From: Thioalkalivibrio thiocyanodenitrificans ARhD 1
GTDB taxonomy: Bacteria; Pseudomonadota; Gammaproteobacteria; Ectothiorhodospirales; Ectothiorhodospiraceae
Direction: 5' to 3'
Length of the DNA stretch: 64,000 bases
Assembly (NCBI RefSeq): GCF_000378965.1
Contig: NZ_KB900537.1
Location: 124,001 to 188,000, forward strand
Shown piece by piece: positions 8,645 to 62,897 of this stretch (positions are counted from its first letter, which is position 1; every line of letters begins with the position of its first letter). The notes beneath the pieces were generated by a model, which did no database searches, had not been told where the DNA came from, and worked only from the letters and a program-made list of their open reading frames with translations. The position numbers and the translations under genes were made by a program.

Positions 8645-9202
8645 TTAGCCGCTCTGTTCCCGGATCGAGCGCACGTCCGGCACCCTGACCTGCATTCTCA
8701 GCACATGCTCCAGCACCGCCTGGGCGTGATTCACGCCGGCCGGGATGTCTGTGAATTCGATGCAATGGGCCACCAGAAACGCCCTGATGCGCTCCCCGAG
8801 CGCCACGGCATCCTCCTCCAGCTCCATCCGCCCCTCAGGCTGATAGGCCCAGGCTGGGTTCAGGTAATAGACCTCGTTGTTGAACGAGTCGAAGAAGTCG
8901 ATCACCAGGCCCGTAAAGCTCCTGGGGTAATGCTCCGGCTTGTAGATGGCCGAAAGCAGCAAAGAGGAGTCGGTGACCACATAGTCGACCTTGTCTCTGA
9001 GCCTGTTGAGCCGGCGGTGTTGCTCGGCGAAGACATAGATCTGGTCTTCGAGCATCTTGAAATGCCCCTCCCAGACCACGTCCTTGGCGAACTCGGTAAC
9101 CAGCTCGGCGCGAAGCCCCTGGCGCTTCATGTCATAGAAAACGCCGGCCGCGGTGGTGGACTTGCCAGCGCACGGCGGCCCGATCAGATTGATGACCTTC
9201 AT
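8645..9202 (-). CDS. AAA_28-type P-loop ATPase/kinase
   Basis: 185 residues. Walker A GPPCAGKST starts at about residue 8 and a TEFAKD segment follows; a VTDSS strand near residue 80 is a likely Walker B-type region. The layout fits the AAA_28 group of small nucleotide or nicotinamide-riboside-type kinases seen in NadR and in phages. Substrate not known. Start at ATG 9202 behind CAGGAGG. Own promoter element and terminator. Confidence 0.72.
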   Translation of the reverse strand: MKVINLIGPPCAGKSTTAAGVFYDMKRQGLRAELVTEFAKDVVWEGHFKMLEDQIYVFAEQHRRLNRLRDKVDYVVTDSSLLLSAIYKPEHYPRSFTGLVIDFFDSFNNEVYYLNPAWAYQPEGRMELEEDAVALGERIRAFLVAHCIEFTDIPAGVNHAQAVLEHVLRMQVRVPDVRSIREQSG

Positions 9203-9232: not shown

Positions 9233-9241
9233 GTATAGCGA
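9233..9241 (-). promoter_or_regulatory. TCGCTATAC-family promoter core
   Basis: Minus strand TCGCTATAC about 30 bases before the kinase-like gene; CAAG 19 bases upstream. Confidence 0.6.
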
Positions 9242-11838: not shown

Positions 11839-12357
11839 TTACGCAGCTTGCGTGTCGGCGGCAAGCTCACGGGCCTTCTCAAGCGCCAACTCGCGCGCCT
11901 GCTTGCTCAGGTTGAGCTTACCGATCGAGACCTCGGCGCCCTTGAGCGTGATCAGGCCGTCGCGCACCTGGATCAACACCGGGCGCACCGCCTCCTTCTC
12001 CTCTTCGGTAATCACCGCATCCCCGCCCTGCGAGCTCGACTCGGGGGCCGATTCGGCGCTCTCGCTCTGCTCCAGAACCTCCAGGCTCTGGACGTAGATC
12101 GTGAGGTTCACCGACGGCTCGCCGTCGTTCCTCTTGTAGGGCTCCACGCTGAGCCTGCCGGAGATCTTGACGCCCGCGCCCTTGGCGATCTCGCCATCCG
12201 CCGCCTTGGGCTCGAACACAACCGCGGTGTACCACACCGTCGAGTCGCCGTCCTTGACAGCCACCCGAAGCCGGCAGTAGGTCTTCTCCCGGCCCTGCTT
12301 GATCCCTTCGTTCGCGCCGACATGGCCGGCGATTTCGACTTTCTGGTATGTTTTCAC
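11839..12357 (-). CDS. SSB-like OB-fold protein
   Basis: 172 residues. The first 95 residues (KVEIAGHVGANEGIKQGREK, VWYTAVVFEPKA, GVKISGRLSVEPYK) have the strand layout of single-stranded DNA-binding proteins; the tail is acidic and helical without the usual DDDIPF end. Start GTG behind AGGAGGAAGAA. Next to the Rad52-type gene, suggesting joint action in recombination. Confidence 0.65.
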   Translation of the reverse strand: MKTYQKVEIAGHVGANEGIKQGREKTYCRLRVAVKDGDSTVWYTAVVFEPKAADGEIAKGAGVKISGRLSVEPYKRNDGEPSVNLTIYVQSLEVLEQSESAESAPESSSQGGDAVITEEEKEAVRPVLIQVRDGLITLKGAEVSIGKLNLSKQARELALEKARELAADTQAA

Positions 12358-12388: not shown

Positions 12389-12397
12389 GTATAGCGA
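12389..12397 (-). promoter_or_regulatory. TCGCTATAC-family promoter core
   Basis: Minus strand TCGCTATAC with CAAC 17 bases upstream, before the SSB-like gene. Confidence 0.62.
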
Positions 12398-12452: not shown

Positions 12453-13241
12453 TTACTGGGTTTCCTTTCGACGTTCGACCATGCGCTCCTCGATCCGGGC
12501 GATTGCGAAGGCGCGCGCATCGGGAGACAACCCCTTGTTTGCTCGAAGGTGCTGAATGGCCCGCTCAGGGCTTGCGCCTGATCGGAGCTTCGAGAATACG
12601 CCCAGCAGAATACCTTCCTCCTCGGGCGTCATCTGAGGGGGCGCATCGGGAAGACGCTCCTGCCGCGAGTCTTCATTCAGCCCCCAATCGATCTCCTTGC
12701 TCATGCTGCGTGTGCTCCTTGCCGGCTGCGCGGCTTGCTCCGGGGGATTCGATACCGTCTCCTGCTCACCAATCTCCTCCTGCCCTTCGTCGGTGCAGAC
12801 GTCAAGAACGGATTCCTGAGGCAGAGAGGTTTCATCGATCAGTGTTTCCCCTTCGGATTCACAGACACACACCTCTACGGGATCCGCGCAGGCATAGCGA
12901 AAGATGCCATACTTGAGCGCGGCACGCTTGAAGGCTTCGGCCTCCGCGTGCTTGATGTTGCGGATATCCTCGAGAGGCGCGATCGCCGCTTTCTCTCTCC
13001 ACTCGCTCTCGACCCGGATGCCCAGAAAGCACTGGATCGCGATCGGATGGCGATCCTGGCCGAGCAGAAGCTCGTAGCGGTCACGCCAACCACAAGGGCC
13101 GAGCACATCGTCCAATCGATCCATGATCTGTAGGGCATCCACGCATCGAACGGCATGGCCTTTGCCGTCACAATGATCCAGGAGCTTCCATTTGACCGCC
13201 GAGGCCGGGAATGGCGCCGCCAGCGTCTTCAGTTCATGCAT
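12453..13241 (-). CDS. Rad52/Rad22-type single-strand annealing protein
   Basis: 262 residues. The first 120 residues match the annealing-protein core: LAAPFPASAVKWK, a long helix with ALQIMDRLDDVLGPCGWRDRY, and AEAEAFKRAALKYGIFRYA, which is the typical C-terminal end of this core. The remainder is a variable acidic linker and a small helical end. Such proteins pair single strands during recombination. Start ATG behind AGAGGAGGACCT. Own promoter, followed by the SSB-like gene. Confidence 0.78.
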   Translation of the reverse strand: MHELKTLAAPFPASAVKWKLLDHCDGKGHAVRCVDALQIMDRLDDVLGPCGWRDRYELLLGQDRHPIAIQCFLGIRVESEWREKAAIAPLEDIRNIKHAEAEAFKRAALKYGIFRYACADPVEVCVCESEGETLIDETSLPQESVLDVCTDEGQEEIGEQETVSNPPEQAAQPARSTRSMSKEIDWGLNEDSRQERLPDAPPQMTPEEEGILLGVFSKLRSGASPERAIQHLRANKGLSPDARAFAIARIEERMVERRKETQ

Positions 13242-13277: not shown

Positions 13278-13286
13278 GTATAGCGA
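13278..13286 (-). promoter_or_regulatory. TCGCTATAC-family promoter core
   Basis: Minus strand TCGCTATAC followed by CTCCCAAGGAC, before the Rad52-type gene. Confidence 0.6.
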
Positions 13287-13761: not shown

Positions 13762-14009
13762 GAGCGGTATCGACGAGTGGGGTCCAGCTTGTGCTCGGGG
13801 AGCACGAGATGACGAATGAGATCGACGTGTGAACGCCAAATGATCTTGACGATCCAGATCACCCACGCCCACTTGGCGCCAAGCACCGCAAGCACCCCTT
13901 TACCGATGCCGTCAACGATGGGTTTGACCATGGTCGAGACCCCGGGCACGAACAGAAGGAGGATCAGCGCGCTGACCAGCACGGCCGCGTAGAACAGGAT
14001 CGTGTTCAT
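13758..14009 (-). CDS. small membrane protein next to coupling ATPase
   Basis: 83 residues; hydrophobic N-terminus (about residues 3-27) and a second hydrophobic stretch (about 36-60). It overlaps the coupling-protein stop by four bases and the next start by four, so it is tightly co-translated. A helper of the coupling protein is a guess from position. Confidence 0.6.
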   Translation of the reverse strand: MNTILFYAAVLVSALILLLFVPGVSTMVKPIVDGIGKGVLAVLGAKWAWVIWIVKIIWRSHVDLIRHLVLPEHKLDPTRRYRS

Positions 14010-15703
14010 TCGTCCGGGTCTCCCGTGTCCATGAGGAACTCGCGATAGCGGTGCTCGTACTCAAGACCTCGCTCCTCCTTTGGCATCTGCCTCGGGTGGC
14101 GAGTGACTTTATAGACCGGCACTTCCTCCGGGAACTCGAGCATGGGTGTCTTGATGTGAAACATGCGCGCCCCGCTCATCACGACGCTCTCGCCGATGCC
14201 GAGGGATTTGAGCTGATCGGGGCTGACGCGATAGCCCTCCTCTTCGCGCCAGCTCTCACCCAGCCCGCCTCCATGGCTCTCGGCAAGCTGAGGCACGGTA
14301 CGAAGCAGGGGGCTGGACTCGGTATCGTTCTCCGACACGGACAGCGAGTACTGGAACGTGGAGCTCTTGCCGATGATATCGGCAGCCATCTCCGGACTGT
14401 CCTTGCTGCCGAACTTGAACAGCACCTTTGACCATGTGTTTTGAATGATCATATCTGCGAAATCCGGCGAAACCACCGACAGGTTCGCGAAGCTCTGGAA
14501 GGCGGGGATCATGCAGATATTGGCGCTTCGCGCCTGCTCGAAAAGGCGCGCGATACCGGGCATCACGTATGAGCCCATCTCGTCAGCGAAGATCAGGTAA
14601 GGCGGAGCCGGGCGGCGGTACTTCGGCGTCCCCTGGATGTTGTAGGTCGCGGTGCGCACGTCAGAGAGAACCATCTTCCCCAGGTTCAGCGCCGCCACAT
14701 CCTTGCCCATGGTGGGCAGCATGATGTAGACGACCTTGTTGTTCAGGATGCAGTCCGTGAGATCGATCTCGGGCGTGTAGGTGTTGAGCACCTGCCCGAA
14801 CTTGCCTTGCGCGAACATGGCGATGCGCCCGGCCATGCCGCCGAGCACCTCTTTGAGCTTGTTGATATCGACCTGGCTGCCGTCCTTGGTCTTTCTGCGG
14901 AACTGATCGAGAAAGACCTGAAGCGCCCTTTTCTCCTGCGACCCTTCAGGGATCATGCGCTCCAGCGACTCGATGGCGCGCGCCGACTGCATGATGATCG
15001 ACAGGTCGCCGAAGTGGTACCGGCAGCCGGCCTTTTTCAGCGCCGCGGTGATTACCGTGAGCGCCTGGTTGGCCTGCTGCTTGTAGAAGTCCGCGCCGAT
15101 GTTGTTCTCAGAGCTTGGCAACAGGTTGAGCAGCCGCGACGAGACCTCGTCGGCATCGCCCGAGAGGATCGGGTTGTAGGTGTTGCTGTTGTGCGGCTCA
15201 TCGACGTTCAGGATGAACAGGTCTTCCTCGCGCCCGAGAAGCTTCATCATGTAGGCCAGCTTGTCGCGAGTCTCGACGTCGAGTTTGGCGTCGATGAAGA
15301 TGAAGCCACCCCCGCGAGCGGCCTGTGACCAGAGCATATACTCTCCGAGCGTGGTCTTGCCCACCCCGGACTGACCGATGATCGCCAGGTGGCGGGTCAG
15401 GAATCCGTTGGCAATATCCACGGGGCGCGAGTGATCGCGCGTGTAGCCGACCCGAAGCCCGTCAAAGCCCAGGGTTTCAGGAAAGGTCTCATCGCTTGGG
15501 AGGATGAAGCCCTCGCGGCTGACGAGATCGGTTCGATCCAGCCACTTCCGGGATCTGCGGTACCCGAGCCATGCGGCGCCAAGCCCTCCACCAGCCATGG
15601 CGGCGGCAGTAAGCGGCATGCCGGCAAACTGCGGGAGCGAAGCCAGGGCGGCCGAGGACAGGCCGAGCAGGGCAGAAGCATCTTTGGGTCCAACCAGGGG
15701 CAT
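14006..15703 (-). CDS. traD: conjugative coupling ATPase, TraD-type
   Basis: 565 residues. Two hydrophobic segments near the N-terminus, Walker A GQSGVGKTT at about 113, Walker B LIFADEMGS at about 365, and the FEQARSANICMIPAFQS segment typical of the TraD/TraG coupling family. It would link the relaxosome to the secretion channel at the inner membrane and pump DNA. No ribosome-binding site is seen at this ATG. No relaxase gene is in the window. Confidence 0.85.
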   Translation of the reverse strand: MPLVGPKDASALLGLSSAALASLPQFAGMPLTAAAMAGGGLGAAWLGYRRSRKWLDRTDLVSREGFILPSDETFPETLGFDGLRVGYTRDHSRPVDIANGFLTRHLAIIGQSGVGKTTLGEYMLWSQAARGGGFIFIDAKLDVETRDKLAYMMKLLGREEDLFILNVDEPHNSNTYNPILSGDADEVSSRLLNLLPSSENNIGADFYKQQANQALTVITAALKKAGCRYHFGDLSIIMQSARAIESLERMIPEGSQEKRALQVFLDQFRRKTKDGSQVDINKLKEVLGGMAGRIAMFAQGKFGQVLNTYTPEIDLTDCILNNKVVYIMLPTMGKDVAALNLGKMVLSDVRTATYNIQGTPKYRRPAPPYLIFADEMGSYVMPGIARLFEQARSANICMIPAFQSFANLSVVSPDFADMIIQNTWSKVLFKFGSKDSPEMAADIIGKSSTFQYSLSVSENDTESSPLLRTVPQLAESHGGGLGESWREEEGYRVSPDQLKSLGIGESVVMSGARMFHIKTPMLEFPEEVPVYKVTRHPRQMPKEERGLEYEHRYREFLMDTGDPDE

Positions 15704-15812: not shown

Positions 15813-15821
15813 GTATAGGGA
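15813..15821 (-). promoter_or_regulatory. TCGCTATAC-family promoter core, traD
   Basis: Minus strand TCCCTATAC about 110 bases before the coupling ATPase; GGGCAA element 17 bases upstream. Confidence 0.55.
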
Positions 15822-15877: not shown

Positions 15878-16567
15878 TCAACGAAGGGCTTCGATCGCGT
15901 CGCGGATGGCCTTGATGTTTCTCTGCAACGTGGTCGGCTGCACGCCAAGCATGTCCTCGACCTCGTCGAGCGACTTGCCGGACTTGAGCAGCACGAGGAT
16001 GCGCAGCTGCCTGCGGCTGAGCTTCTTGCGCAACTCCACCTCGTCTTTCTCGCACTCGATCGCGATCTGCTTGGAGATGTTCTCGCGAAGCGTCATCGCG
16101 CCGTGCAGCTGCTGCTCGAGCTCGAGCATCTCCACGGGGGTGAGCCGCGAGAGATCGGAAGGCTCCTCGGCATCGACACCTCCGTCCTGATTGTCCAGCA
16201 CATCGGCCAGATCCTCCCAGGAGATGGGCGCGGCGAGGTGGCCCGGCTGCACGTAGGTGGTGCCGTCTTTCTTCTTGCGAAAGGCGCTGCCGGGCAGGCG
16301 CACAGGGGAGCCCATGTCGCGCCGGTGACGAAGGGCGGCGTGAAATCCGATCGTGTGCGCGTAGGATGCGGTCTGCCCCTCCGAGAGATCCGGGTCGGGC
16401 ATGGCGTTCAACCAGGCGATACGAATCTCCTGGGCGGCATCATCCTGCATGCTTGCGGGGATCCGCGCCTTGGCCAGCGTGATGTTGATCAATTTGCGCT
16501 CAAGCCCGAGTGCTGTTATCTTGTCATAGAGTGTGCTGGCGCTAAGCTTTTGATTTTTCGCAATCAT
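15878..16567 (-). CDS. sigma-70-like DNA-binding regulator (tentative)
   Basis: 229 residues. The N-terminal half (LINITLAKARIPASMQDDAA with QEIRIAWLNA after it) resembles sigma region 2; RRDMGSPVRLPGSAF resembles the RxxRPVRLP segment of region 3; the C-terminus (LSRRQLRILVLLKSGKSLDE, then VEDMLGVQPTTLQRNIKAI) is a helix-turn-helix like region 4 or a LuxR-type domain. Central residues 110-165 are an acidic linker. The match is by eye and could equally be a transcription regulator. Start ATG behind GGGGAG; it faces an HTH gene 21 bases away. Confidence 0.55.
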   Translation of the reverse strand: MIAKNQKLSASTLYDKITALGLERKLINITLAKARIPASMQDDAAQEIRIAWLNAMPDPDLSEGQTASYAHTIGFHAALRHRRDMGSPVRLPGSAFRKKKDGTTYVQPGHLAAPISWEDLADVLDNQDGGVDAEEPSDLSRLTPVEMLELEQQLHGAMTLRENISKQIAIECEKDEVELRKKLSRRQLRILVLLKSGKSLDEVEDMLGVQPTTLQRNIKAIRDAIEALR

Positions 16568-16588: not shown

Positions 16589-17140
16589 ATGAACGTGATG
16601 GACAGAACGAGAAAAGGTCCGAGGATCGGCAAGCGATTCAAGGGCCCGAAACTGGATTTTTCGTTGGTGGCGCCAAAGCCTCCGGAGCGAGCCCCCACCG
16701 CGGACACCGTCCTGGCACAGGAAATAGCCAAGGCGCTCGATAAATTCGATCTCTCGCAGGCCGAGCTCGCGGACATTCTCACCGAGAGAACCGGGTATGT
16801 GGTCTCGGTGAACGGATTGTCCCGCTGGCGCAAGGCGGGCGTCGCGCCTCCGAGCGGCGAGGCGGAGATCCTTGGCGAGCTCAAGCGCATCAACAGATCG
16901 CGCACCCGGCCGATCGAGGAGACTCGCAAAGTCGCGCACGAGGAGCTTGTCGAGCTTCTCGACGCCTGGAATGCCCGCGGGTTCAAGGACAAGCAGATCG
17001 CCCTCGCCGCGGATCTCAGCCAATCGACGATTTCCTCGTGGAGGGCTGGACGCTCGTCAATGAGTCCCGAGCAGCTCAACGAGGTGATCTCAGCTGTAGA
17101 AAAATGGATCAAGCGCATCAACCCAAAAGCTCGTAGATGA
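16589..17140 (+). CDS. HTH DNA-binding protein, two helix-turn-helix segments
   Basis: 183 residues. Segments LSQAELADILTERTGYVVSV, followed by NGLSRWRKAG, and KDKQIALAADLSQSTISSWR both look like XRE-type helix-turn-helices. The N-terminus is basic. Its start is only 21 bases from the start of the divergent sigma-like gene, so each promoter must lie inside the other's 5' end and cross-regulation is likely. It overlaps the RusA-like gene end by 23 bases (convergent). Confidence 0.68.
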   Translation: MNVMDRTRKGPRIGKRFKGPKLDFSLVAPKPPERAPTADTVLAQEIAKALDKFDLSQAELADILTERTGYVVSVNGLSRWRKAGVAPPSGEAEILGELKRINRSRTRPIEETRKVAHEELVELLDAWNARGFKDKQIALAADLSQSTISSWRAGRSSMSPEQLNEVISAVEKWIKRINPKARR

Positions 17141-17579
17141 ATATGTGGCTGCGCCCCTGATTCCTGCGTGCCTCGAGCTGGCGCATGTAGGGGGGTTCAG
17201 GCATGTACTTCGGGCAATCGTCTACAATCAAACCAAGCCCATCAGGGTTCCTGCTGGTCTGGCGAACCAGGCAGTCCTGCACCACCTTCAGACCCCCAAG
17301 AGCGTTATCCCAGTCAAGCTCTCCGCTTGAGTAGCGATGCACTTCAAGCAGTGCCTGCGCAATAGGCCTGCTCGGCAAGCGCATGTTGAGCGCAACAAGA
17401 ATCTCGCTGGCCCACGCCCTTCTGAGCTTTCGATATGCCATGTAGTGCATCCCGCGAAGCGTGTTGTTTGAAGGCGTGAGTATGGCCAGGTCCAGGCGAT
17501 AGCACACGCGCGCGTTTCGCACGAGCGGCCAGAAAAGGTTCTCTTCGCCGGCCAGCGCTGTCGCAGCCTCGGTGATCAA
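17118..17579 (-). CDS. RusA-like Holliday junction resolvase
   Basis: 153 residues. LDLAILTPSNNTLRGMHYMA opens like RusA; the acidic cluster LDWDNALGGLKVVQDCLV with a later LIVDDCPKYM places Asp residues where RusA has its metal-binding sites. It would cut four-way junctions. Start TTG 17579 has no strong ribosome-binding site and follows the preceding stop at once. Confidence 0.65.
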   Translation of the reverse strand: MITEAATALAGEENLFWPLVRNARVCYRLDLAILTPSNNTLRGMHYMAYRKLRRAWASEILVALNMRLPSRPIAQALLEVHRYSSGELDWDNALGGLKVVQDCLVRQTSRNPDGLGLIVDDCPKYMPEPPYMRQLEARRNQGRSHIFIYELLG

Positions 17580-17582: not shown

Positions 17583-17816
17583 TCAATCGCCGCTGCCGGC
17601 GCTACTCGGCTTGCTCTTCTCGAAGCGGGCGAACTCCCGGTCGGAATCCATGAACTGACGAACCATCTCCTCGACCAGCTGGTTGAGGGGGATTTCGTCG
17701 TTGTAGGCAGAGCTGTACATCGCCTGGTAGCTCTTGAGGCGATCAACGACGCTCTTGTGGATCCCGAGCGCCTGGCGCACGATTGGGTCGTGGTTTGTGA
17801 TCCGATCGATCTTCAC
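17583..17816 (-). CDS. small putative ribbon-helix-helix-type protein
   Basis: 77 residues: basic N-terminus, then VRQALGIHKSVVDRLKSYQA and EIPLNQLVEEMVRQFMDSD, a strand-helix-helix order like CopG or DUF2274 proteins. Start GTG behind ACGGAG. Two tandem copies of a 23-base promoter/operator-like repeat lie upstream, which suits an autoregulated DNA-binding protein (inference). Confidence 0.6.
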   Translation of the reverse strand: MKIDRITNHDPIVRQALGIHKSVVDRLKSYQAMYSSAYNDEIPLNQLVEEMVRQFMDSDREFARFEKSKPSSAGSGD

Positions 17817-17848: not shown

Positions 17849-17895
17849 AAAGTGTAGCACCAGTAACGGGGCAAAGTGTAGCACCAGTAACGGGG
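17849..17895 (-). promoter_or_regulatory. tandem class 2 promoter/operator (2 x 23 bp)
   Basis: Two exact 23-base copies, one base apart, each reading GTTACTGGTGCTACACTTT on the minus strand. Same design as 5645 and 58072. Confidence 0.65.
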
Positions 17896-17992
17896 GCGGT
17901 CAACAAAATGGGAAGGGGTACTGGGTGCCCTGCCCTGCCCAAGCGAATCCGGCAGCGGATCCGGGGAAACGCCGCAAGGCTGGTGGTGGTAG

Positions 17993-18001
17993 GTATAGGG
18001 A
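17993..18001 (-). promoter_or_regulatory. TCGCTATAC-family promoter core
   Basis: Minus strand TCCCTATAC with CAAA 18 bases upstream; a third possible promoter for the 17583-17816 gene. The GC-rich DNA from here to 18136 has no other feature. Confidence 0.5.
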
Positions 18002-18971: not shown

Positions 18972-19085
18972 CGTTCGTCCACCCATGGTGCGAAGCTCGT
19001 GCGCCTGAGGTGCGATGGTTGCTCCGCCTGTAGTGCGAAGCTCCTCCGGCGCCGGTGCGAAGGTTCGTCCACCTGTAGTGCGATG
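18972..19085 (+). repeat. degenerate iteron cluster
   Basis: Four to five imperfect units ending GGTGCGA or AGTGCGA, about 22 bases apart, only some keeping the CGTTCGTCCACC half. Confidence 0.65.
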
Positions 19086-19088
19086 GGT

Positions 19089-19117
19089 TGTGGATGACCG
19101 CGTCTGGCTGTGGAGAA
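19089..19117 (-). other. two possible DnaA boxes
   Basis: TGTGGATGA (19089-19097) and TGTGGAGAA (19109-19117) each differ by one base from the reverse of TTATCCACA. Confidence 0.45.
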
Positions 19118-19353
19118 AGCAACACACGCACCGCGCGCACTGTAGCCGAGCTTCTGCGCTTCCTCCCCTGGTCGATCACGCAGGGCCGCGCGCCTGCCCA
19201 CGCGCCGCTCTGGTGAGTGCCCTGCGCCGCAGCTGGGCCTCGATCTCTGGTCCGGCCGCCGTCCGCCCTCCAGGCCGTTGACCTTCTGCGGGCAGCAAGA
19301 ACAAGGAACCCTCTCCCGCATCGTGTGCAGCCCCGCCCGGTGCGCGGATCCCG

Positions 19354-19378
19354 CGTTCGTCCACCTCTGGTGCGATGG
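19354..19378 (+). repeat. iteron 1 of the conserved set
   Basis: CGTTCGTCCACC followed by TCTGGTGCGATGG. Confidence 0.8.
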
Positions 19379-19406
19379 TTTCGGGCTTTCAGAGGCCCCT
19401 CAAGCC

Positions 19407-19431
19407 CGTTCGTCCACCTCTGGTGCGATGG
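19407..19431 (+). repeat. iteron 2
   Basis: Identical to iteron 1 across the unit; followed by an A/T-rich stretch. Confidence 0.8.
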
Positions 19432-19615
19432 TTTTTCAGGAGCAATTGCAGGGTAAGTCATTGAAAAAACGAGATAAGCACGAAAATATGGTCGTTTTCG
19501 GGCGCTGCCGTCGGCGCAGCCACCTGGATCCCGCGCCAGGCCTCGGAGGGCCTGAAAAGGCGTTTTTTGGCGGGATTTGGGTGTAGTTAATTCCAACAAA
19601 AACAGATGCTTACGG

Positions 19616-19640
19616 CGTTCGTCCACCTCTGGTGCGATGG
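19616..19640 (+). repeat. iteron 3
   Basis: Same unit, extended upstream by TTACGG, with CAAAAACAG a few bases further up. Confidence 0.8.
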
Positions 19641-19707
19641 ATCCGGACTTGGCGGCCCGAGGCGCCCCTCGCGCGCCAGAATATACGGGCAAATCAGGTA
19701 GTTACGG

Positions 19708-19732
19708 CGTTCGTCCACCTCTGGTGCGACGC
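19708..19732 (+). repeat. iteron 4
   Basis: Same unit with GTTACGG upstream; last bases GACG instead of GATG. Confidence 0.8.
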
Positions 19733-19821
19733 AGTCGCGCTCTCAGGACCAGGAGCTGTGTCGGCCGCAAAATACCTGGCCTGCGGATGATGGGATTGAG
19801 CGCAAAAACAGCGAGTTACGA

Positions 19822-19845
19822 CGTTCGTCCGGCTCCGGTGCGATG
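19822..19845 (+). repeat. iteron 5 (variant)
   Basis: CGTTCGTCCGGCTCCGGTGC: three changes in the centre; again preceded by CAAAAACAG and GTTACGA. Confidence 0.75.
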
Positions 19846-19901
19846 CTCGTAACGGTCTCTGGCCTGGCGGCCTCGGCCCTGCTTAAACCCTGATCTCGCT
19901 G

Positions 19902-19925
19902 CGTTCGTCCACCTCTGGTGCGACG
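19902..19925 (+). repeat. iteron 6
   Basis: CGTTCGTCCACCTCTGGTGC then GACG; ends four bases before the initiator stop codon. Confidence 0.8.
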
Positions 19926-19929
19926 AACG

Positions 19930-21105
19930 CTACGCCGTATCCGCGGGGTTATCGCTGGCGCGGGTGGTGTGAAGCTTGAAGGGCGTCCGGCGTCCCGTGC
20001 CCGAAATATGGAAACGCTCAAGCCAGCCTACGTCGACGAGCTCTTGCGCTGCTTCAGAGAAGGTTTCGCGCCAGCGCTTCGACCCTCCGGGCCAACCGAT
20101 CGTTTTGGCCAGCCACTCCAGTTCGCGACAATAGTGATAGGGTTGTGTTGAGAGGAACTTGAAAAGCGCTTTCGAGGTCGCGCGAACAAGTTTGCGCCGC
20201 ACGTTCCAGTTCAGGTAGGTGAACTCTCGCTCGAGCCAGTGCGTGACCAGCGGGTTGAACTGGATCTGAAAGAGCCCCGGGGTTCCGTAAGCATCCCATA
20301 TCACATGCAGCAGGTTGAAGGTTGTGCCTGGGGTGAAGTCCGGGAGGTAGCGCTGGTGGAGGTCTTCGGTGCGGTAGTTGATCTCGATGCTCACGCCCGC
20401 GAGATCCTGCACACAGGCCTTGATCGCGTTGAGGTTCTTGGAGCCAGTCGATGCCCAGCCCAGCTCCCGGGCGATCTCTGTGCTGGTGCACAGTGTGACG
20501 TAGACGCGCTCCGGTCGCCCTGCCCTCCCCTCGGCGCCGTCCAGCTCCTGGCGGGTAAAGGCAATGGGGATGGGCAGCTTGCGAGGCAGCCCGCGCACAT
20601 GGTTGTTGCGCAGGCGCAGCAGCGCAATCAGGACATCCTCGTGCCGCGTCGTGACTTTCGGCCCGTGGCGCTTGCCGTACCCGAACGGACCCTGGAAGAC
20701 GAGCGCGTTTGTGCGCGGCTCGAGCAGCTCCTGCTGCTTTTCCTCCGAGATCGGTGGAAAGATGGGAAAACGGCAGATCGGGATCGGAAATTCATTGCCC
20801 ACGCCCACGGCGGGGAGCACATCGATATGTCCCTCGCGCTCCATCTTAAAGAGTTCAAGCTGCGCGGCGGCAACCAACTGGCGTGTCGAGCGCCCGCTGC
20901 CGCGAGGTCTTGGGGTGGCGCTCGGTTCGACTGGCGCATCGGGCGGCGCCTCAGAGCGCGCAAGCTCTTCCCCCAGGGTGAGCGCCTGAGCCTTGGCCTG
21001 CGCCTTTCTGGAGACCGCCTTCTCGATACGACGAAGCGATGAGTGCAGGCTGGCTTCCATCGTTGACTCCCGAGCGTTGTGTATTGAGGGTGGGGCAGAC
21101 CCCAT
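19930..21105 (-). CDS. trfA: plasmid replication initiator, TrfA-like
   Basis: 391 residues. The C-terminal 280 residues show the double winged-helix initiator pattern: FPIFPPISEEKQQELL, TTRHEDVLIALLRLRN, LGWASTGSKNLNAIKACVQD, FNPLVTHWLEREFTYLNWNV, ALFKFLSTQPYHYCRELEWL. It would bind the adjacent iterons and open the origin. Two starts are plausible: ATG 21105 after GAGGAGGG (wide spacing) and ATG 21060 after GGGAG (ideal spacing), as TrfA itself is made in two lengths. Divergent from parA; sigma-70-like promoter at 21137-21165. Confidence 0.82.
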   Translation of the reverse strand: MGSAPPSIHNARESTMEASLHSSLRRIEKAVSRKAQAKAQALTLGEELARSEAPPDAPVEPSATPRPRGSGRSTRQLVAAAQLELFKMEREGHIDVLPAVGVGNEFPIPICRFPIFPPISEEKQQELLEPRTNALVFQGPFGYGKRHGPKVTTRHEDVLIALLRLRNNHVRGLPRKLPIPIAFTRQELDGAEGRAGRPERVYVTLCTSTEIARELGWASTGSKNLNAIKACVQDLAGVSIEINYRTEDLHQRYLPDFTPGTTFNLLHVIWDAYGTPGLFQIQFNPLVTHWLEREFTYLNWNVRRKLVRATSKALFKFLSTQPYHYCRELEWLAKTIGWPGGSKRWRETFSEAAQELVDVGWLERFHISGTGRRTPFKLHTTRASDNPADTA

Positions 21106-26114: not shown

Positions 26115-27491
26115 TCAGGCCGCTGCCCTGTGTGGCTCGACCGGCGCGCAAAGCCTGTTGAGCGCCTCGCCCAGGTGCGCTCCGACTGCTTCGAACACGC
26201 AGTGGATCACTGACTGGCCGAGCATCTCGTGGGCCGTGGTCTCGGCAACCCCCTCGATGAGTTTCCCGGGGATCGTCTTGACCGCAGCATGCTCTGCCGG
26301 CGTGAACAGGCGTTCGAGCACCGGATCACTGGGATGGGAGAGCATCGGCTCGGTGGAGCGGTACTTCGCGTAGCCGCGCCCGATGGTGCCGCATCCGTCC
26401 TCATCGCCCTTGAGTACCTGGCGCTTGAACCCCTTTCCGGCCGCCTCGTCCTTGACCGCCTTGTCACGCAGGTACGACAGGTCGCGCCAACGCGGGGAGT
26501 CCTCGGCCACCGGCTCGAGGATCTCGGCCAGGCTGTGCTCACGCGCACGCACCGCCCTGAGCGTCTGGAGGTCGATCTCCAGCCCCTCGGTGGCGGCCAC
26601 CACACACAGACGGTCGCGCCGTTCGAGCGACCCGAACTCGGGCCCCGAGAGCACGCGCTCCTCGAGCGCATAGCCCCTGGATTCGAGCACCTCTCGGATG
26701 ACGTGCATCGAGACCGTGTTCTGGTAGGGTGGCACGTTCTCCAGGACCACCACCGCGGGTTGGGTCGCCTCGATGAAGGCGAGAAACGCGACAAACAGCG
26801 ACCCGGCCGTCTCGTGCTGCTCGGCGAACGCCAGCTTGTTCTTCGCGCGCCCCGAGAGCGAGGCCCCGGTGCAGGGCAGCCCCGCGACCAGGATCTCCAC
26901 CGGCGCAAGGCGCGAGACTTCCACGTCCTGCATCGGCGCACAGATGGCGGTCGAGTCCTTGTCCCAGACCGGGTTGTTCTCCAGACTGGCCTCCAGGTAC
27001 TTCGCCTCGATCTCCACGCCAAAGGCCAGGCGCGATGCGATGCCCGCGCGCCGAAGCCCGCTGTGCAACGCATGATCGAGCACGCCGGCGCCATGCGCCA
27101 GTGAGCCCACGCGCAGCGCCTCGCCCCGGCGCAGCCGATCGCGCACCCGCTCGAGGCGTTCCTGACAGGCCGCCTGGTGCGGGTGGAGGGTGACCAGCAG
27201 CCCCTCGGGGCGCACCACAACGCGTACGCGATCGACCTGCCCAAAGAGCTCCGCGAGCTCCGAGGCGTTGATATCGAGCACCGGCGAGACCTTCTCGCCG
27301 CGCTTTCTCTTGCTGATGGTGCGCTCGCCGTCGTCGGCGAGCCTGAGCACCAGGCGCTTGTTATCGGTGTCCCAGTCGAGCCGGAACCTGTCACCGGGCT
27401 TGATGCCGTGGCGTGAGAGGATGTTGCCTTCAAGCCACAGGCGTCGATTGCCGCGGTGCTCGCCGAGTTTCGTGTACACGACCGATGCCAT
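26115..27491 (-). CDS. C5 cytosine DNA methyltransferase, orphan
   Basis: 458 residues. The catalytic loop VAGLPCTGAS (Cys nucleophile), VVLENVPPY (ENV motif) and LERRDRLCVVA (QRRxR-like) identify a cytosine-5 methyltransferase. The first 115 residues are an unusual N-terminal domain, and the SAM-binding motif I (normally FxGxG) is replaced by VGSLAHGAGVLDHAL. No restriction enzyme gene lies nearby, so it may act in self-protection or gene control. Start behind GGAGG; own element at 27522. Confidence 0.78.
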   Translation of the reverse strand: MASVVYTKLGEHRGNRRLWLEGNILSRHGIKPGDRFRLDWDTDNKRLVLRLADDGERTISKRKRGEKVSPVLDINASELAELFGQVDRVRVVVRPEGLLVTLHPHQAACQERLERVRDRLRRGEALRVGSLAHGAGVLDHALHSGLRRAGIASRLAFGVEIEAKYLEASLENNPVWDKDSTAICAPMQDVEVSRLAPVEILVAGLPCTGASLSGRAKNKLAFAEQHETAGSLFVAFLAFIEATQPAVVVLENVPPYQNTVSMHVIREVLESRGYALEERVLSGPEFGSLERRDRLCVVAATEGLEIDLQTLRAVRAREHSLAEILEPVAEDSPRWRDLSYLRDKAVKDEAAGKGFKRQVLKGDEDGCGTIGRGYAKYRSTEPMLSHPSDPVLERLFTPAEHAAVKTIPGKLIEGVAETTAHEMLGQSVIHCVFEAVGAHLGEALNRLCAPVEPHRAAA

Positions 27492-27521: not shown

Positions 27522-27530
27522 GTATAGCGA
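27522..27530 (-). promoter_or_regulatory. TCGCTATAC-family promoter core
   Basis: Minus strand TCGCTATAC followed by CTCCTGAGGTCAAC, before the methyltransferase. Confidence 0.62.
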
Positions 27531-34083: not shown

Positions 34084-34866
34084 TCAGTCTTTGTTCTGGT
34101 CGATCCATTGCGAGAGGGTCTTGCTTTCGCGCATCGCCTTGGCCGGGATCGACACGCCCTTGCGCTCGGCGATGCTCTTGGCGAATTCGAGCTGCTTCTC
34201 GCTCGGGGGGAATGGCTTGCTGGCGTGCTCGTCCAGGAACTTCCTGCATACGCCGGCGTCGGTCTCGCAGTTCTCAGGCAGGCTCAGGTTGAGCGCCGCG
34301 GCCAGCTTCTGCGCAAACGCGATCTGTTTCTCGGTGGGTGCTCCAGACATTGTGTCTCCTCGGTGCGTTGTTGATGAGGGCCTCGCGAGGCCCTTGAGTG
34401 TTTCGATATCGCAGGAAAGCTTTTTCACCAAAGCCGCCTCAAAGCGCTCGCGGGTCAGCTTGCCTTCCTGAATCCCCTGGAGCGCCGCTTCCCATCGGGC
34501 GGTCTCGGCCACGTCGTATAGCGACTCGGGCAGGAACTCGATCAGCTCGCGGCCCTTGTCGGTGGAGATGATGTGCTTGCCTTTGTTGATGAGCAGGCCG
34601 TGGCGCTTGAGCGTCTCAATGATCGAGGCGCGCGTGGCGCCCGTGCCCAGCCCGGTGACCTGTTTGAGGGTCTTGGCGAATTCGCGCTCCGCGACGAACT
34701 TCGATGCGGCCTCCATGTCATCGACCAGCGTGCCCTCGCTATAGCGCGCCGGCGGCTTGGTCTTCTTCGCCTTGATCGAGACCGACAGCACGCTGGCCAT
34801 CTCGCCATCGCTCACTGGCGGCAGGATCTGCTCCTCGCCCGAGCTCTTTTCGGTGGAATCGGCCAT
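34084..34866 (-). CDS. topoisomerase III C-terminal domain protein, truncated
   Basis: 260 residues. KPPARYSEGTLVDDMEAASK, TGLGTGATRASIIETLKRHG and KGKHIISTDKGRELIEFLPE are the late part of TopB (domains after the catalytic tyrosine), followed by two SEKQ-type terminal repeats as at the TopB end. The TOPRIM and tyrosine parts are missing. A second start (MSGAPTEKQ, ATG 34350) has its own GAGGAG eight bases upstream, so a separate 88-residue product may also be made. Confidence 0.7.
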   Translation of the reverse strand: MADSTEKSSGEEQILPPVSDGEMASVLSVSIKAKKTKPPARYSEGTLVDDMEAASKFVAEREFAKTLKQVTGLGTGATRASIIETLKRHGLLINKGKHIISTDKGRELIEFLPESLYDVAETARWEAALQGIQEGKLTRERFEAALVKKLSCDIETLKGLARPSSTTHRGDTMSGAPTEKQIAFAQKLAAALNLSLPENCETDAGVCRKFLDEHASKPFPPSEKQLEFAKSIAERKGVSIPAKAMRESKTLSQWIDQNKD

Positions 34867-34878: not shown

Positions 34879-35364
34879 CTACAGGTACGACCAGGAGCCG
34901 CGCGCGGCCGGTGATGCGTAGCGCTCCACGCGCGCCTGGCCGGCGCCCTTGATCTTGAGCTCATAGACACGCACGCCCCGCCGGCAGAGATAATCGAGGC
35001 CTTTCGTGTCGCGGTAGTGGTTTGCGAAGTAGAGCTCGGCGACGCCCGCGCCCGCGATGCGCTTGGCGCACCCAAGGCATGGGCTGTGGGTCGTGAACAC
35101 CTTCGCGCCCGCGCCGGATTCCGTCGATCCGGCCAGCTTGTCGAAGGCGTTCTCTTCGGCGTGCAGGACATCGGGGAGGGTGTTGTTGTCGGCATCCTCG
35201 CAGCCGTTATCCCAACCGGGCGGGGTGCCGTTGTAGCCGATCGAGATGATGCGGTGCTGGGTGTTGACCACCACGCACCCCACCTTCAGGCGCGTACAGC
35301 TGGAGAGCTCGGCGAACACGTGCGCGGTCTGCATATAGGCACACAAGTGCTTGATTTTCATCAT
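34879..35364 (-). CDS. deoxycytidylate (dCMP) deaminase
   Basis: 161 residues. Zinc-binding HAEEN and PCLGCAK plus SSCTRLKVGCVVV match dCMP deaminase, which makes dUMP for dTTP synthesis. Phages and large plasmids carry it to tune nucleotide pools. Tandem ATGs at 35364 and 35361; CGGAG upstream. Own element at 35421. Confidence 0.86.
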   Translation of the reverse strand: MMKIKHLCAYMQTAHVFAELSSCTRLKVGCVVVNTQHRIISIGYNGTPPGWDNGCEDADNNTLPDVLHAEENAFDKLAGSTESGAGAKVFTTHSPCLGCAKRIAGAGVAELYFANHYRDTKGLDYLCRRGVRVYELKIKGAGQARVERYASPAARGSWSYL

Positions 35365-35420: not shown

Positions 35421-35429
35421 GTATAGCGA
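35421..35429 (-). promoter_or_regulatory. TCGCTATAC-family promoter core
   Basis: Minus strand TCGCTATAC with GCAAA ending exactly 17 bases upstream of TATAC. Confidence 0.65.
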
Positions 35430-41055: not shown

Positions 41056-41628
41056 TTATCGAGGCACGTTCGGGACGAGGCGCTCGTGAGGCTGTACGAT
41101 CCCGGCGCGCTCGCGCACCTCGGCATCGGCATCATCGGAACTCGTTTGCGCCTCCGGGCTCTTCGGGTTGAAGCCGAGATTCTCCGGGCGAAGCGGCGTG
41201 ATCACGCCCGCCCCCTCACCAGGGGCCGTCAAGGTGCCGAAGTTCCAGTAACCCTCGGTGGTGAAGTAGAGGTATTCCCCGCCGTGCAGAACGCCCTCGG
41301 CGCTCTGATACGGGGCGATCCATAGCTGATGGACCGAGGGGGGCGTATAGACCGGCTTGCCGCGCTCATCGGGCATCGGGAACCCCGGGAACACCCTTTC
41401 GCCGACCACTCCCTGGCGCTCTGCCGACTGGCCACCATTGGCGCCGGAGCGCTCATGCACGTTCTCGCGCGACCCGAAGTCGCCCAGGGCGGCGGAGTGG
41501 GTGTCTTCCAGGCTCTTGCAGTAGCCCTCGGCGCTGTTGAGTGGGCACGAATAGCTCGGGCTCGATGCGCACCCGGCGGCGAACAGGGAAACTGCGCCAA
41601 TCAGGATCAGTGTCTGGTAGGGCTTCAC
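41056..41628 (-). CDS. traV: TraV outer-membrane lipoprotein
   Basis: 190 residues. Lipobox LFAAGC at residues 15-20 of the signal peptide, then CPLNSAEGYCKSLEDTH, the TraV cysteine signature. It anchors the secretion channel in the outer membrane. Start GTG behind GGAGTC. Own element at 41706, inside the traB-traV gap. Confidence 0.88.
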   Translation of the reverse strand: MKPYQTLILIGAVSLFAAGCASSPSYSCPLNSAEGYCKSLEDTHSAALGDFGSRENVHERSGANGGQSAERQGVVGERVFPGFPMPDERGKPVYTPPSVHQLWIAPYQSAEGVLHGGEYLYFTTEGYWNFGTLTAPGEGAGVITPLRPENLGFNPKSPEAQTSSDDADAEVRERAGIVQPHERLVPNVPR

Positions 41629-41705: not shown

Positions 41706-41714
41706 GTGTAGCGA
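41706..41714 (-). promoter_or_regulatory. TCGCTATAC-family promoter core, traV
   Basis: Minus strand TCGCTACAC with CAAC 17 bases upstream. Confidence 0.6.
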
Positions 41715-44742: not shown

Positions 44743-45051
44743 TTAGATCAGCGCACCGGAACCCATGATCGCCTTGATCACGCCGGGGCCCCAGTAGAGA
44801 ATTGCAGCACCAGCGATACCGGACAGGGCGGGCAGCGGGCTGTTCTTGGCAACACCCATCGCGGCTCCCACTAACAGCATAGTTATGGCCAAGCCAATTC
44901 CGAGCGCACCCGAGGCCCATGCGTCCACGGTCTCCATGAACTCCAGGAAGGGGTCGTCGCCGGTGGCCGCCATCGCCACGCCGGACATGAGCATCAGAAA
45001 CAGGGCAAGCAGAACCCTCTTGTAATGCACGTTATGAACATTGTTGAGCAT
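44743..45051 (-). CDS. traA: TraA major pilin
   Basis: 102 residues. Signal region ending MSGVAMA-ATGDDPFLEF, then two hydrophobic stretches (about 55-75 and 80-95), as in F-type pilin precursors. Start behind ACGGAGAAAG. First gene of the tra operon, with a strong TCGCTATAC element 70 bases upstream. Confidence 0.83.
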   Translation of the reverse strand: MLNNVHNVHYKRVLLALFLMLMSGVAMAATGDDPFLEFMETVDAWASGALGIGLAITMLLVGAAMGVAKNSPLPALSGIAGAAILYWGPGVIKAIMGSGALI

Positions 45052-45119: not shown

Positions 45120-45128
45120 GTATAGCGA
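45120..45128 (-). promoter_or_regulatory. TCGCTATAC-family promoter core, traA operon
   Basis: Minus strand TCGCTATAC with GCAAA ending 17 bases upstream. It lies just upstream of the transglycosylase gene end and reads into traA. Confidence 0.68.
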
Positions 45129-45635: not shown

Positions 45636-45977
45636 CTACGCTTCCCCCTCGCTCTCGGCCTGCGCGTCCGGATCCATGACCAGGTTGACCCGCTCGGCGA
45701 CCAGCTCGGTCTGAACGAAACCGTCGCTGACGATCCCCTTCATCACGCCCTGGACCCGCCCGCTGATCTCCACGAACGCATCCTCCTCGACCGCGGCACG
45801 GCACTTCTCCAGGCGAAACGCAGGAATGCGGATGGGCACGGCGTTGATGAATTCGATGGCGCGGTTCTGCTGACGCTCCCGCTGAGGACCGTACTGCACG
45901 AGAATCAGCGCGGACGGATTCTCTTTCTCCGGGATGTGAACGGACCTGATGCGTCCGATGATGTGAAACAGGTTCAT
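45636..45977 (-). CDS. SSB-like OB-fold protein, transfer region
   Basis: 113 residues. NLFHIIGRIRSVHIPEKENP, EFINAVPIRIPAFRLEK and DAFVEISGRVQGVMKG follow the SSB/OB strand order but lack the acidic tail. Start behind AAAGGAG. Likely binds single strands around transfer; inference. Confidence 0.58.
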   Translation of the reverse strand: MNLFHIIGRIRSVHIPEKENPSALILVQYGPQRERQQNRAIEFINAVPIRIPAFRLEKCRAAVEEDAFVEISGRVQGVMKGIVSDGFVQTELVAERVNLVMDPDAQAESEGEA

Positions 45978-46043: not shown

Positions 46044-46052
46044 GTATAGCGA
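46044..46052 (-). promoter_or_regulatory. TCGCTATAC-family promoter core
   Basis: Minus strand TCGCTATAC, CAAG 17 bases upstream, before the SSB-like/transglycosylase unit. Confidence 0.62.
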
Positions 46053-49504: not shown

Positions 49505-49822
49505 TCAGTCCTCGCTCTCCGCGGGAGGCACCTCGGACACGACGCCGTCCTCCTTCATGGCGTCGATGTAGTCGCGCTCATAGAAGGCGCGCCAGAGCGT
49601 GTACTGACAGCCGTAATCGAGCTTCTCGAACGATTCTCTGACCGTCACCTGTCCATCCGGCACGGTCAGCGCGGTCACCGACACCGCCAGGTTGCCGGTC
49701 CACTCGATGGGCGCACAGGCCCGCTCGATCCGGGTGCTGGAATCAGGCGCGAGGAACATCCACCCGATGTAAACGATCACGAGCAGGGAGAAGATCTGTC
49801 CGAAAATGGTCTTTCCTGGCAT
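49505..49822 (-). CDS. small membrane-anchored protein
   Basis: 105 residues. Membrane segment IFGQIFSLLVIVYIGWMFLA near the N-terminus, then a soluble periplasmic part with two cysteines (ERAC, GCQY). First in the unit with the DsbA/C-like and lipoprotein genes. Unknown family. Confidence 0.62.
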   Translation of the reverse strand: MPGKTIFGQIFSLLVIVYIGWMFLAPDSSTRIERACAPIEWTGNLAVSVTALTVPDGQVTVRESFEKLDYGCQYTLWRAFYERDYIDAMKEDGVVSEVPPAESED

Positions 49823-49991: not shown

Positions 49992-50000
49992 GTATAGCGA
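49992..50000 (-). promoter_or_regulatory. TCGCTATAC-family promoter core
   Basis: Minus strand TCGCTATAC about 170 bases before the 105-residue gene; the leader between is GC-rich with no other signal. Confidence 0.55.
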
Positions 50001-52258: not shown

Positions 52259-52275
52259 AGTATAGCACCGGTAAC
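52259..52275 (-). promoter_or_regulatory. class 2 promoter, helicase
   Basis: Minus strand GTTACCGGTGCTATACT; identical to the pil cassette site. Confidence 0.65.
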
Positions 52276-52374: not shown

Positions 52375-52815
52375 CTAAAAGGGGATTTCATCTCCAAATG
52401 GGTCGAATTCCTGGGAAGCAGGCGGGGCGCTCTGCTGAGCCTGCGGCTGAGCCTGCGGCTGAGCATGTGCACCGGAGCCCTGGCCGCCGCGCGCACCGAG
52501 CATCTGCATCTCGTTGGCGACGATCTCCGTGGAGTAGCGGTCCTGGCCACTCTGGTCCTGCCACTTGCGGGTCTGAAGACGGCCCTCGACGTAGACCATC
52601 GAGCCCTTCTTGAGATACTCGCCCGCGATCTCCGCCAGGCGCCCGAAGAACACCACGCGATGCCATTCGGTCTTCTCCTGGCGCTCGCCGCTGTTCTTGT
52701 CTCGCCACTTCTCCGTGGTGGCGAGGCTCACGTTGGTCACGGCGCCGCCGTTGGGCGTGTGCCGCACCTCGGGGTCGTTGCCGAGGTTCCCCACCAATAT
52801 CACCTTGTTAACCAT
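52375..52815 (-). CDS. ssb: single-stranded DNA-binding protein SSB
   Basis: 146 residues. [40 protein letters not shown] and [12 protein letters not shown] are standard SSB; the Gln/Pro-rich linker ends in DPFGDEIPF, the partner-binding tip. Start behind CAGGAGGACGT. Own promoter and terminator. Confidence 0.93.
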
Positions 52816-52854: not shown

Positions 52855-52863
52855 GTATAGGTA
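52855..52863 (-). promoter_or_regulatory. TCGCTATAC-family promoter core, ssb
   Basis: Minus strand TACCTATAC; back to back with the + strand element at 52912. Confidence 0.55.
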
Positions 52864-52911: not shown

Positions 52912-52920
52912 TCGCTATAC
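52912..52920 (+). promoter_or_regulatory. TCGCTATAC-family promoter core
   Basis: TCGCTATAC followed by CTCCTGAGTTCAG, before the HD hydrolase gene. Confidence 0.62.
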
Positions 52921-52951: not shown

Positions 52952-53569
52952 ATGAAATTGAGGTACTTGATCGCGGGTTACCTGATCGGTAACGTGCCGC
53001 AACGCCTGGGGCGAAAGGCCTGGATCCTGACGCAATCAGGGCGAAGGTTCTATCCGATCGCGCCGCGCGCAGAAGACGTGGTGATCGAGGATATCGCCCA
53101 TGCGCTTGCAAACATGTGCCGCTTCAACGGCCATTGTTCGGACTACTACTCGGTGGCCCAGCACTCGGTGCTGGTCAGCGAAGCGGTAGAGCGCGCTTTG
53201 CCTGGGGACCCGATGGCGGCGCTACAGGGCTTGCTCCACGACGCGACCGAGGCCTATCTTCCCGATGTGCCCTCGCCCGTGAAGCCCTTTCTCTTTGGCT
53301 TCAAGCGCATCGAGAACAGAGTCATGGCAGCCCTCTGCCAGGCCCTTCACATTCCGCAGGCGTTCCCTCCTGAAATAAAGGCCGCGGATCTGGCCATTCT
53401 CTGGGATGAGGCGCGCGCGCTGCTCAAGGAGCCTCCCAGTGACTGGCATGTCCCGGTAATCCCGCTGGGCGTGCAGATAAGTCCCTGGGAGCCGAAGAAA
53501 GCGAAGCGATTGTTCATGGATCGCTTCAGATCACTGCTTGCGCAGCTCAAATACGCGCAGGCCGCTTAA
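52952..53569 (+). CDS. HD-domain nucleotidase (YfbR-like)
   Basis: 205 residues. YYSVAQHSVLVSEAVERAL, LLHDATEAYLPDVPSPVK and AADLAILWDEARAL carry the HD-domain His/Asp set of 5'-deoxynucleotidases. It would act on dNMPs, in keeping with the dCMP deaminase. Start behind AAAGGACATAGCG. Own terminator. Confidence 0.78.
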   Translation: MKLRYLIAGYLIGNVPQRLGRKAWILTQSGRRFYPIAPRAEDVVIEDIAHALANMCRFNGHCSDYYSVAQHSVLVSEAVERALPGDPMAALQGLLHDATEAYLPDVPSPVKPFLFGFKRIENRVMAALCQALHIPQAFPPEIKAADLAILWDEARALLKEPPSDWHVPVIPLGVQISPWEPKKAKRLFMDRFRSLLAQLKYAQAA

Positions 53570-56067: not shown

Positions 56068-56076
56068 GTATAGCGA
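56068..56076 (-). promoter_or_regulatory. TCGCTATAC-family promoter core
   Basis: Minus strand TCGCTATAC about 40 bases before the rubrerythrin gene. Confidence 0.62.
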
Positions 56077-58071: not shown

Positions 58072-58088
58072 GTTACCTGTGCTATACT
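58072..58088 (+). promoter_or_regulatory. class 2 promoter, DNA polymerase
   Basis: GTTACCTGTGCTATACT, one base different from the 5645 and 52259 sites. Confidence 0.62.
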
Positions 58089-62842: not shown

Positions 62843-62897
62843 GCAGGGAAGGCGGTCGCGCGGTGTGGCCGTCATCCAACGAAAGAAGAGGTTTGCT

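Follow-up and report, generated by a model that had tools for sequence, protein, structure and literature searches.

A Putative Plasmid-Encoded Sigma Factor and a Plasmid-Wide Promoter Family in Thioalkalivibrio thiocyanodenitrificans ARhD 1

A sigma factor is the subunit that directs RNA polymerase to its start sites. Can a large plasmid direct the transcription of its own genes with one that it encodes itself? The question is raised by a gene for a 229-residue protein in a 64,000-nucleotide stretch of DNA (the window; positions 124,001 to 188,000 of contig NZ_KB900537.1) from Thioalkalivibrio thiocyanodenitrificans ARhD 1. An initial annotation, made without database searches, tentatively described the gene as a plasmid-borne, sigma-70-like gene whose product could read an unusual family of promoters containing TCGCTATAC. 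The follow-up analysis shows sequences, positions, enrichment, conservation and a predicted fold. The most likely interpretation is that the gene encodes a plasmid sigma factor that is started by the host sigma-70 and runs a plasmid-wide regulon, with core polymerase binding and promoter firing being inferred.

Genomic setting and homologs of the gene

The 229-residue open reading frame was confirmed at the annotated position, on the minus strand, which had not been specified. The window is part of a 301,689-bp contig (C2) in a genome of 3.75 Mb and three contigs. Because C2 contains a parA-like gene, F-type transfer genes, and a gene for a TraD-like coupling protein, its earlier description as a plasmid is a fair one. 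Gene calls were made with a simple custom finder and are approximate. The gene and its neighbors are as follows:

14006-15703, minus strand: TraD-like coupling protein gene (PF12696, E=1.4e-7; 65% identical in Variovorax)
15878-16567, minus strand: sigma-70-family-like gene, 229 residues (TIGR02937, Sigma70_r2, predicted model and fold searches)
16589-17140, plus strand: divergent gene for a 183-residue XRE-type helix-turn-helix protein (PF01381, E=4e-7)
17118-17579, minus strand: conserved 153-residue gene of unidentified family, in the same operon as the sigma-like gene and present in the Agitococcus contig
17583-17816, minus strand: DUF2274 gene, first of the sigma operon (PF10038, E=7e-10; synteny in related plasmids)

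The ends of C2 appeared to duplicate one another, as the copies of TCGCTATAC at positions 1073 and 3958 of the contig were found again, with identical surroundings, at 298320 and 301205, and the plasmid is therefore probably circular, with a length of approximately 297 kb.

Homologs of the 229-residue protein are rare. One was found on a Variovorax megaplasmid (35% identity over 95% of the length, in the same gene block), one on a contig of an Agitococcus metagenome-assembled genome, and more distant ones on five Halomonas/Vreelandella plasmids. The Halomonas protein, annotated as hypothetical or as a helix-turn-helix protein, is encoded in the same place, and the family profile matched its first 84 residues (E=7e-9). 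No more full-length homologs were found in approximately 1,250 sampled genomes, in which weak matches covered chiefly the C-terminal helix-turn-helix, and none were found in phage records or viral contigs. The gene order, DUF2274, the 153-residue gene, the sigma-like gene, and then transfer genes, was kept across the related plasmids. A homolog of the 183-residue protein was found at the same place and on the opposite strand on the Halomonas plasmids (BLASTP E=3e-11; synteny); this protein may be an anti-sigma factor or a repressor.

Similarity to sigma factors

The best matches of the protein in the profile search were to sigma-70/ECF models, all of them under the curated cut-offs and significant by E-value alone. 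The best NCBIfam model was TIGR02937 (sigma70-ECF), which matched residues 39-225 (E=1.8e-4, 21.2 bits against a cut-off of 42.9), and Pfam Sigma70_r2 matched residues 40-84 (E=8.8e-4, 19.5 bits against a cut-off of 24). Since these scores are under the cut-offs, the protein is called sigma-70-like here, and the claim made is that it functions like a sigma factor. TIGR02937 was independently matched by the Agitococcus (E=0.003) and Halomonas (E=0.002) members along their length, and the Halomonas member also matched Sigma70_r4_2 (E=0.001). The Variovorax homolog alone matched no family model. The C-terminus of the 229-residue protein had helix-turn-helix matches, including sigma region 4 and LuxR-type domains; its match to GerE was confined to this end, and GerE was the sole Pfam match of the Agitococcus member. 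No other gene on the 302-kb plasmid matched Sigma70_r2, and the profile search of the plasmid gave no rival match to Sigma70_r4_2. HHalign of the N-terminal domain against the sigma factors of the host gave no signal, with shallow profiles, which counts against the sigma reading. PHROGs gave weak, mostly C-terminal matches. No single-subunit RNA polymerase was matched on the plasmid, but the positive control also matched nowhere, so that this search is uninformative.

Three segments within the gene resemble regions of sigma factors:

16316-16450, minus strand: region 2.2-2.4-like segment, residues 40-84, with QEI..W and YA...R..RR (Sigma70_r2; helices 38-54 and 63-84; alignment)
16274-16303, minus strand: region 3.0-like VRLPGSAFRK, residues 89-98, invariant in three close homologs and lost in the Halomonas one
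15884-16024, minus strand: region 4-like helix-turn-helix, residues 182-228 (helices 185-195, 200-207 and 211-228; region 4 and LuxR matches)

In the alignment, the Q(E/D)I..W of region 2.2 was conserved in all four homologs. The structure was predicted with AlphaFold from an input of only three sequences (pLDDT 70 for the full length). The model had helices at residues 13-20, 23-33, 38-54, 63-84, 144-182, 185-195, 200-207 and 211-228, with a low-confidence linker between the fourth and fifth of these, which is a predicted layout of sigma2, linker and sigma4. When the full model was searched against the PDB with Foldseek, nearly all of the best rows were sigma factors with both domains covered, among them Bacillus subtilis SigH, Mycobacterium tuberculosis SigH, sigma32, sigmaE and FliA. 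LuxR-type proteins aligned only to the last ~50 residues, where DesR and other regulators of this type matched about as well as sigma4 did. When the first 115 residues were modeled separately (pLDDT 80), they matched sigma2 domains nearly exclusively, mostly with rmsd of 2.3-3.2 Å over 61-75 residues and Z of 6-7.5, and the first match was T4 gp55 (Z 7.5). Z stayed under 9 across the fold searches, and because it was under 8 for the N-terminal domain, support for this fold is moderate and rests on the uniform sigma identity of the matches. The region 2 fold with its QE helix was present in the N-terminal model with the same moderate support, and its binding to core polymerase is inferred.

The initial annotation had placed region 2 around QEIRIAWLNA (residues 46-55), region 3 at SPVRLPGSAF (residues 87-96), and region 4 in a C-terminal helix-turn-helix (residues ~182-228). 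The first placement held, both in the Sigma70_r2 match and in the sigma2-type fold, and so did the third, although LuxR-type helix-turn-helices match it about as well. The second held in part: the predicted model has no separate sigma3 domain, and VRLPGSAF is best read as region 3.0 directly after region 2.4. It had also been stated that a best structural match to a plain LuxR- or XRE-type regulator lacking core-binding helices would refute the sigma reading, and this did not occur, because the similarity to LuxR proteins is confined to the C-terminal ~50 residues. The proposal of an element-encoded sigma factor is thus supported by the family models, the two-domain model, and the sigma-dominated Foldseek matches.

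A promoter family found throughout the plasmid

The 9-mer TCGCTATAC was the most over-represented on the plasmid (58 observed, 1.2 expected), followed by TCCCTATAC (31 observed, 0.7 expected). It was spread over the whole plasmid at very high copy number, and there were only 2 copies on the 3.4-Mb chromosome compared with the 58 on the plasmid. With 14 exact copies in the window against 0.09 expected, the unusual promoter family noticed initially was confirmed. Expectation maximization gave the motif T-C-[GC]-C-T-A-[TC]-A-C, present by position weight matrix (PWM) in 56% of upstream regions. As a pattern, TC[GC]CTA[TC]AC was found in the sense orientation in 91 of 262 upstream regions, about a third, and in the antisense orientation in 24 (p=2e-10), and the antisense sites included those of divergent neighbors. 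CTATAC was found in sense in 124 of the 262 regions and in antisense in 41, compared with 6 sense and 0 antisense in the 279 upstream regions of a 400-kb chromosomal control sample.

These sites, designated class 1, were positioned like promoters. Fifty-nine of 106 were 20-60 nt before a start codon, and a purine-rich start region was present 5-7 nt downstream of the CTA-n-AC core. A weak -35-like element, G[GT]n[CA]A[AG], preceded 28 of 105 sites (1 of 105 at the control position), and GAAC was found at this element in none of the 105. Class-1 sites preceded genes for TraD, TraV, pilin, two single-stranded DNA-binding proteins (SSBs), a DNA methylase, and dCMP deaminase, among others, and there was no class-1 site in the rep/par block. 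In the window they are:

9233-9241, minus strand: TCGCTATAC (exact match) before the AAA_28 ATPase gene (8645-9202)
12389-12397, minus strand: before an SSB gene (11839-12357)
13278-13286, minus strand: before gene 12453-13241
15813-15821, minus strand: TCCCTATAC upstream of the traD-like gene (PWM)
17993-18001, minus strand: TCCCTATAC before the sigma operon, which may thus be autoregulated (PWM 25.1, among the best in the window)
27522-27530, minus strand: before the C5-cytosine methylase gene (26115-27491)
34516-34524, minus strand: TCGCTATAC, 481 nt from the next start codon and possibly not functional
35421-35429, minus strand: before the dCMP deaminase gene (34879-35364)
41706-41714, minus strand: variant TCGCTACAC before the TraV-like gene (41056-41628)
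45120-45128, minus strand: before the TrbC/VirB2-type pilin gene (44743-45051)
46044-46052, minus strand: before gene 45636-45977
49992-50000, minus strand: before gene 49505-49822
52855-52863, minus strand: variant TACCTATAC before the second SSB gene (52375-52815)
52912-52920, plus strand: before gene 52952-53569
56068-56076, minus strand: before the rubrerythrin gene (55608-56027)
60544-60552, plus strand: before gene 60589-61041
62834-62842, plus strand: before gene 62865-63095
63834-63842, plus strand: near the window end

From sequence alone, it is likely that about half of the transcription units of the plasmid begin at a class-1 signal that the host chromosome hardly uses.

The class-1 signal is probably not of the sigma-70 type, an inference from its avoidance of T at a position where sigma-70 requires that base. 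Only 6 of 105 class-1 sites had T directly after CTA[TC]AC (p=8e-5), compared with 25 of the 31 sites preceded by TG, and the two classes were nearly mutually exclusive (Fisher p=3e-16). The second class, TGCTA[TC]ACT, has 25 sites on the plasmid, which combine the TGn and the following T with a TTAC box and with TTGA at the distance of a -35. Its consensus is TTGA..TTAC.gTGCTA[TC]ACTttg, and its positions in the window include 5653, 18725, 52267 and 58080. Class 2 has the form of sigma-70 extended -10 promoters, and the conservation of its TTAC box suggests, by inference, that these promoters share a plasmid repressor. It preceded the sigma operon and two further genes of the window:

52259-52267, minus strand: class-2 (sigma-70, extended -10) TGCTATACT before the helicase gene (50114-52219)
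58080-58088, plus strand: class-2 TGCTATACT before the family-A DNA polymerase gene (58134-60503)

Expression of the sigma operon

Upstream of the sigma operon were the class-1 site at 17993-18001 and the following elements:

17875-17903, minus strand: host sigma-70-type promoter, TTGACC-N17-TACACT with TG, and an operator-like GTTACTG
17851-17859, minus strand: second tandem class-2 element TGCTACACT (direct repeat CCCCGTTACTGGTGCTACACTTT)

The TTGACC-N17-TACACT promoter sits within GTTACTGGTGCTACACTTT, in tandem. The region upstream of the Variovorax sigma operon contains TTGACAGTTGGTGTTACTGAAGCTATACTTT, and that of the Agitococcus operon TTGACA-N18-TATACT. The pattern TTGAC-N16-18-TA[CT]ACT occurred once on C2 and once on the Variovorax plasmid, in both cases at the sigma operon, where the promoter is conserved between the two. 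The simplest reading is that a repressor that binds GTTACTG controls initiation of the operon by the host sigma-70 and that the plasmid sigma factor then reinforces expression of the operon; both the repressor and the feedback are inferred.

Distribution of the promoter with the gene

Only two plasmids had both a close homolog and enough DNA for statistics. On the Variovorax megaplasmid, TC[GC]CTA[TC]AC was found 44 times in sense and 13 times in antisense orientation (p=5e-5). Expectation maximization gave T-n-G-C-T-A-[TCG]-A-C-G; its -10 is looser than that of C2, and an A is conserved where transcription probably starts. Among the leading sense hexamers before genes were CTACAC, AGGACA, TCGCTA, CTAGAC and CTATAC. 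The genome of a Variovorax strain had only 15 copies of TCGCTATAC in 8.1 Mb, and the 0.8-Mb plasmid of a sister strain had 11. Matches to TC[GC]CTA[TC]AC numbered 0-1 in the chromosomal sample of the strain that carries C2 and in two related conjugative plasmids in which no sigma homolog was found, pHN39-SIM and RPME01 (400 kb of it; with a related TraD).

This motif was also absent from the Halomonas plasmids, whose homolog lacks VRLPGSAF. A different motif, TGTCA-N5-14-CCTA[CT]C (TGTCA..CCCTA[TC]C) followed by a GAGACC leader, was found there at the same distance from genes, with 7 sense and 2 antisense sites on each of two plasmids and 0-1 elsewhere. It was found by reading upstream regions and then checked on the second plasmid, k-mer scans having been swamped by repeated leaders. 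Because related plasmids may share sites by descent, this point is merely suggestive. At the start of many genes on the Halomonas plasmids, directly following TGTCA..CCCTAYC, is the leader GAGACCTGCA(N)GCAGGAATGAGAGAGGAG, which is a short hairpin before the ribosome site.

By comparison, without biochemistry, a dedicated promoter class travels with the gene on the two replicons with close homologs. The co-occurrence is based on two close lineages only, and other plasmid genes co-occur as well. The link initially drawn from the gene to the TCGCTATAC promoters is accordingly supported by comparison only, that is, by the co-occurrence in Variovorax and the absence of the motif without the gene.

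Proposed mechanism and alternative explanations

In the proposed mechanism, host RNA polymerase with sigma-70 would transcribe the operon of DUF2274, the 153-residue gene, and the sigma gene from TTGAC-N17-TA[CT]ACT. The resulting two-domain (sigma2 and sigma4) factor would bind the host core polymerase via the QE(I) helix of region 2. Regions 2.3-2.4 and the VRLPGSAF segment would read the -10 and its 5' extension, TC[GC]CTA[TC]AC, and region 4 would read the weak -35-like G[GT]n[CA]A[AG] as help. The factor would turn on approximately half of the plasmid transcription units, including those for transfer, SSB, DNA metabolism and cargo, and would probably activate its own operon too (site at 18001). 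Core binding, promoter recognition, the direction of regulation, and autoactivation are all inferred, without biochemistry or RNA data. A bolder reading, judged more likely than not, is that an unrecognized sigma family gives conjugative megaplasmids of the Pseudomonadota their own transcription program, started by the host sigma-70, with about half of the operons depending on it, a -10 invisible to sigma-70, and co-evolution of sigma factor and promoter between lineages.

The first alternative is that the protein is an ordinary LuxR/GerE-type regulator with an unrelated helical N-terminal domain, and that the host sigma-70 reads TCGCTATAC with this or another protein as activator. In its favor are the C-terminal matches, which are about as good to LuxR-type regulators as to sigma4, and GerE as the only Pfam match of the Agitococcus member. 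It is nevertheless unlikely. The N-terminal models match sigma2 almost exclusively, and the protein does not have the arrangement of LuxR-type and response regulators, a receiver or ligand domain followed by a GerE helix-turn-helix; no receiver or autoinducer domain was found, and the N-terminal domain is sigma2-like rather than receiver-like. Furthermore, the box is at the -10 position and lacks the TGn and the -7 T of sigma-70, both of which the class-2 promoters keep, while an activator box would normally be expected near -35 to -60, where none is prominent.

The second alternative, also considered unlikely, is that the sigma-like gene is a bystander, with an alternative sigma factor from the chromosome or another shared plasmid protein reading the motif. 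The chromosome does encode approximately ten sigma factors, and many backbone genes are common to C2 and the Variovorax plasmid. However, the chromosome is nearly without the motif (2 exact sites, and none in the 279 upstream regions sampled), the same motif family recurs in a host that is only distantly related, the plasmid has no further match to sigma-70 r2 or r4_2, and the motif changed where the gene diverged, in Halomonas. A third possibility, that TCGCTATAC is a non-promoter signal such as a partition, methylation, entry or packaging site, would fit its very high copy number over the whole plasmid, but is very unlikely given the strong orientation bias toward genes, the narrow start-codon distance, the CTA-n-AC core that is followed after 5-7 nt by purine-rich start sequence, and the lack of the motif in the rep/par block.

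Comparison with known systems and implications

Under the preferred reading, that of a plasmid sigma factor, the nearest known analog would be SigN (ZpdN) of the B. subtilis plasmid pBS32, which is transcribed from host-sigma promoters and from its own promoter (PMC6751061). Like SigN, the putative factor is plasmid-encoded, has weak homology to known sigma factors, a predicted regulon on its own plasmid, and putative promoters of both kinds, host-sigma and its own class. SigN, by contrast, comes from a Firmicute plasmid that harbors a cryptic prophage-like element; DNA damage induces it, and it is lethal to the cell (PMC6751061), whereas the C2-type factor is found on conjugative megaplasmids of the Pseudomonadota, with its putative promoters at approximately half of the transcription units. 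The predicted layout of sigma2 and sigma4, and TIGR02937 as the best model along the whole length, are shared with ECF (group 4) sigma factors. The protein differs from these in its score (21 against 42.9 bits), in a long linker of ~55 residues (~88-143) with an invariant VRLPGSAFRK-KDG, and in extended -10 promoters without a strong GGAAC-type -35; no gene for a membrane anti-sigma factor was recognized beside the sigma gene. As with T4 gp55, an element-encoded factor would divert host RNA polymerase to -10-dominated promoters of the element, with diversion by the plasmid factor being inferred. The phage protein lacks a DNA-binding sigma4 and needs co-activators. Unlike gp55, the plasmid protein has a sigma4-like helix-turn-helix, and no relative of it was found in phage records or viral contigs. 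No proteobacterial plasmid sigma factor of this kind was found in the open-license literature searched, the coverage of which was partial.

If this reading is correct, the plasmid would run much of its own genome via a private sigma factor and be only loosely wired to host promoters, which could explain how large plasmids stay expressible across hosts. One gene would be a master switch for transfer and cargo, an orthogonal pair of sigma factor and promoter would be on offer, and genes annotated as hypothetical on the Variovorax and Halomonas plasmids would gain testable roles.

Two types of repeats were observed in addition to the promoter motifs. Dispersed repeats of the GGTGCGACCATCG type, iteron-like by eye in translations of the open reading frames, are present at 19000-20000 of the window, near a rep-like gene. 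On the chromosome contig C1 (400 kb sampled), a unit with TTCAATGAGGCC and neighboring words was present more than 90 times and is probably part of a CRISPR array.
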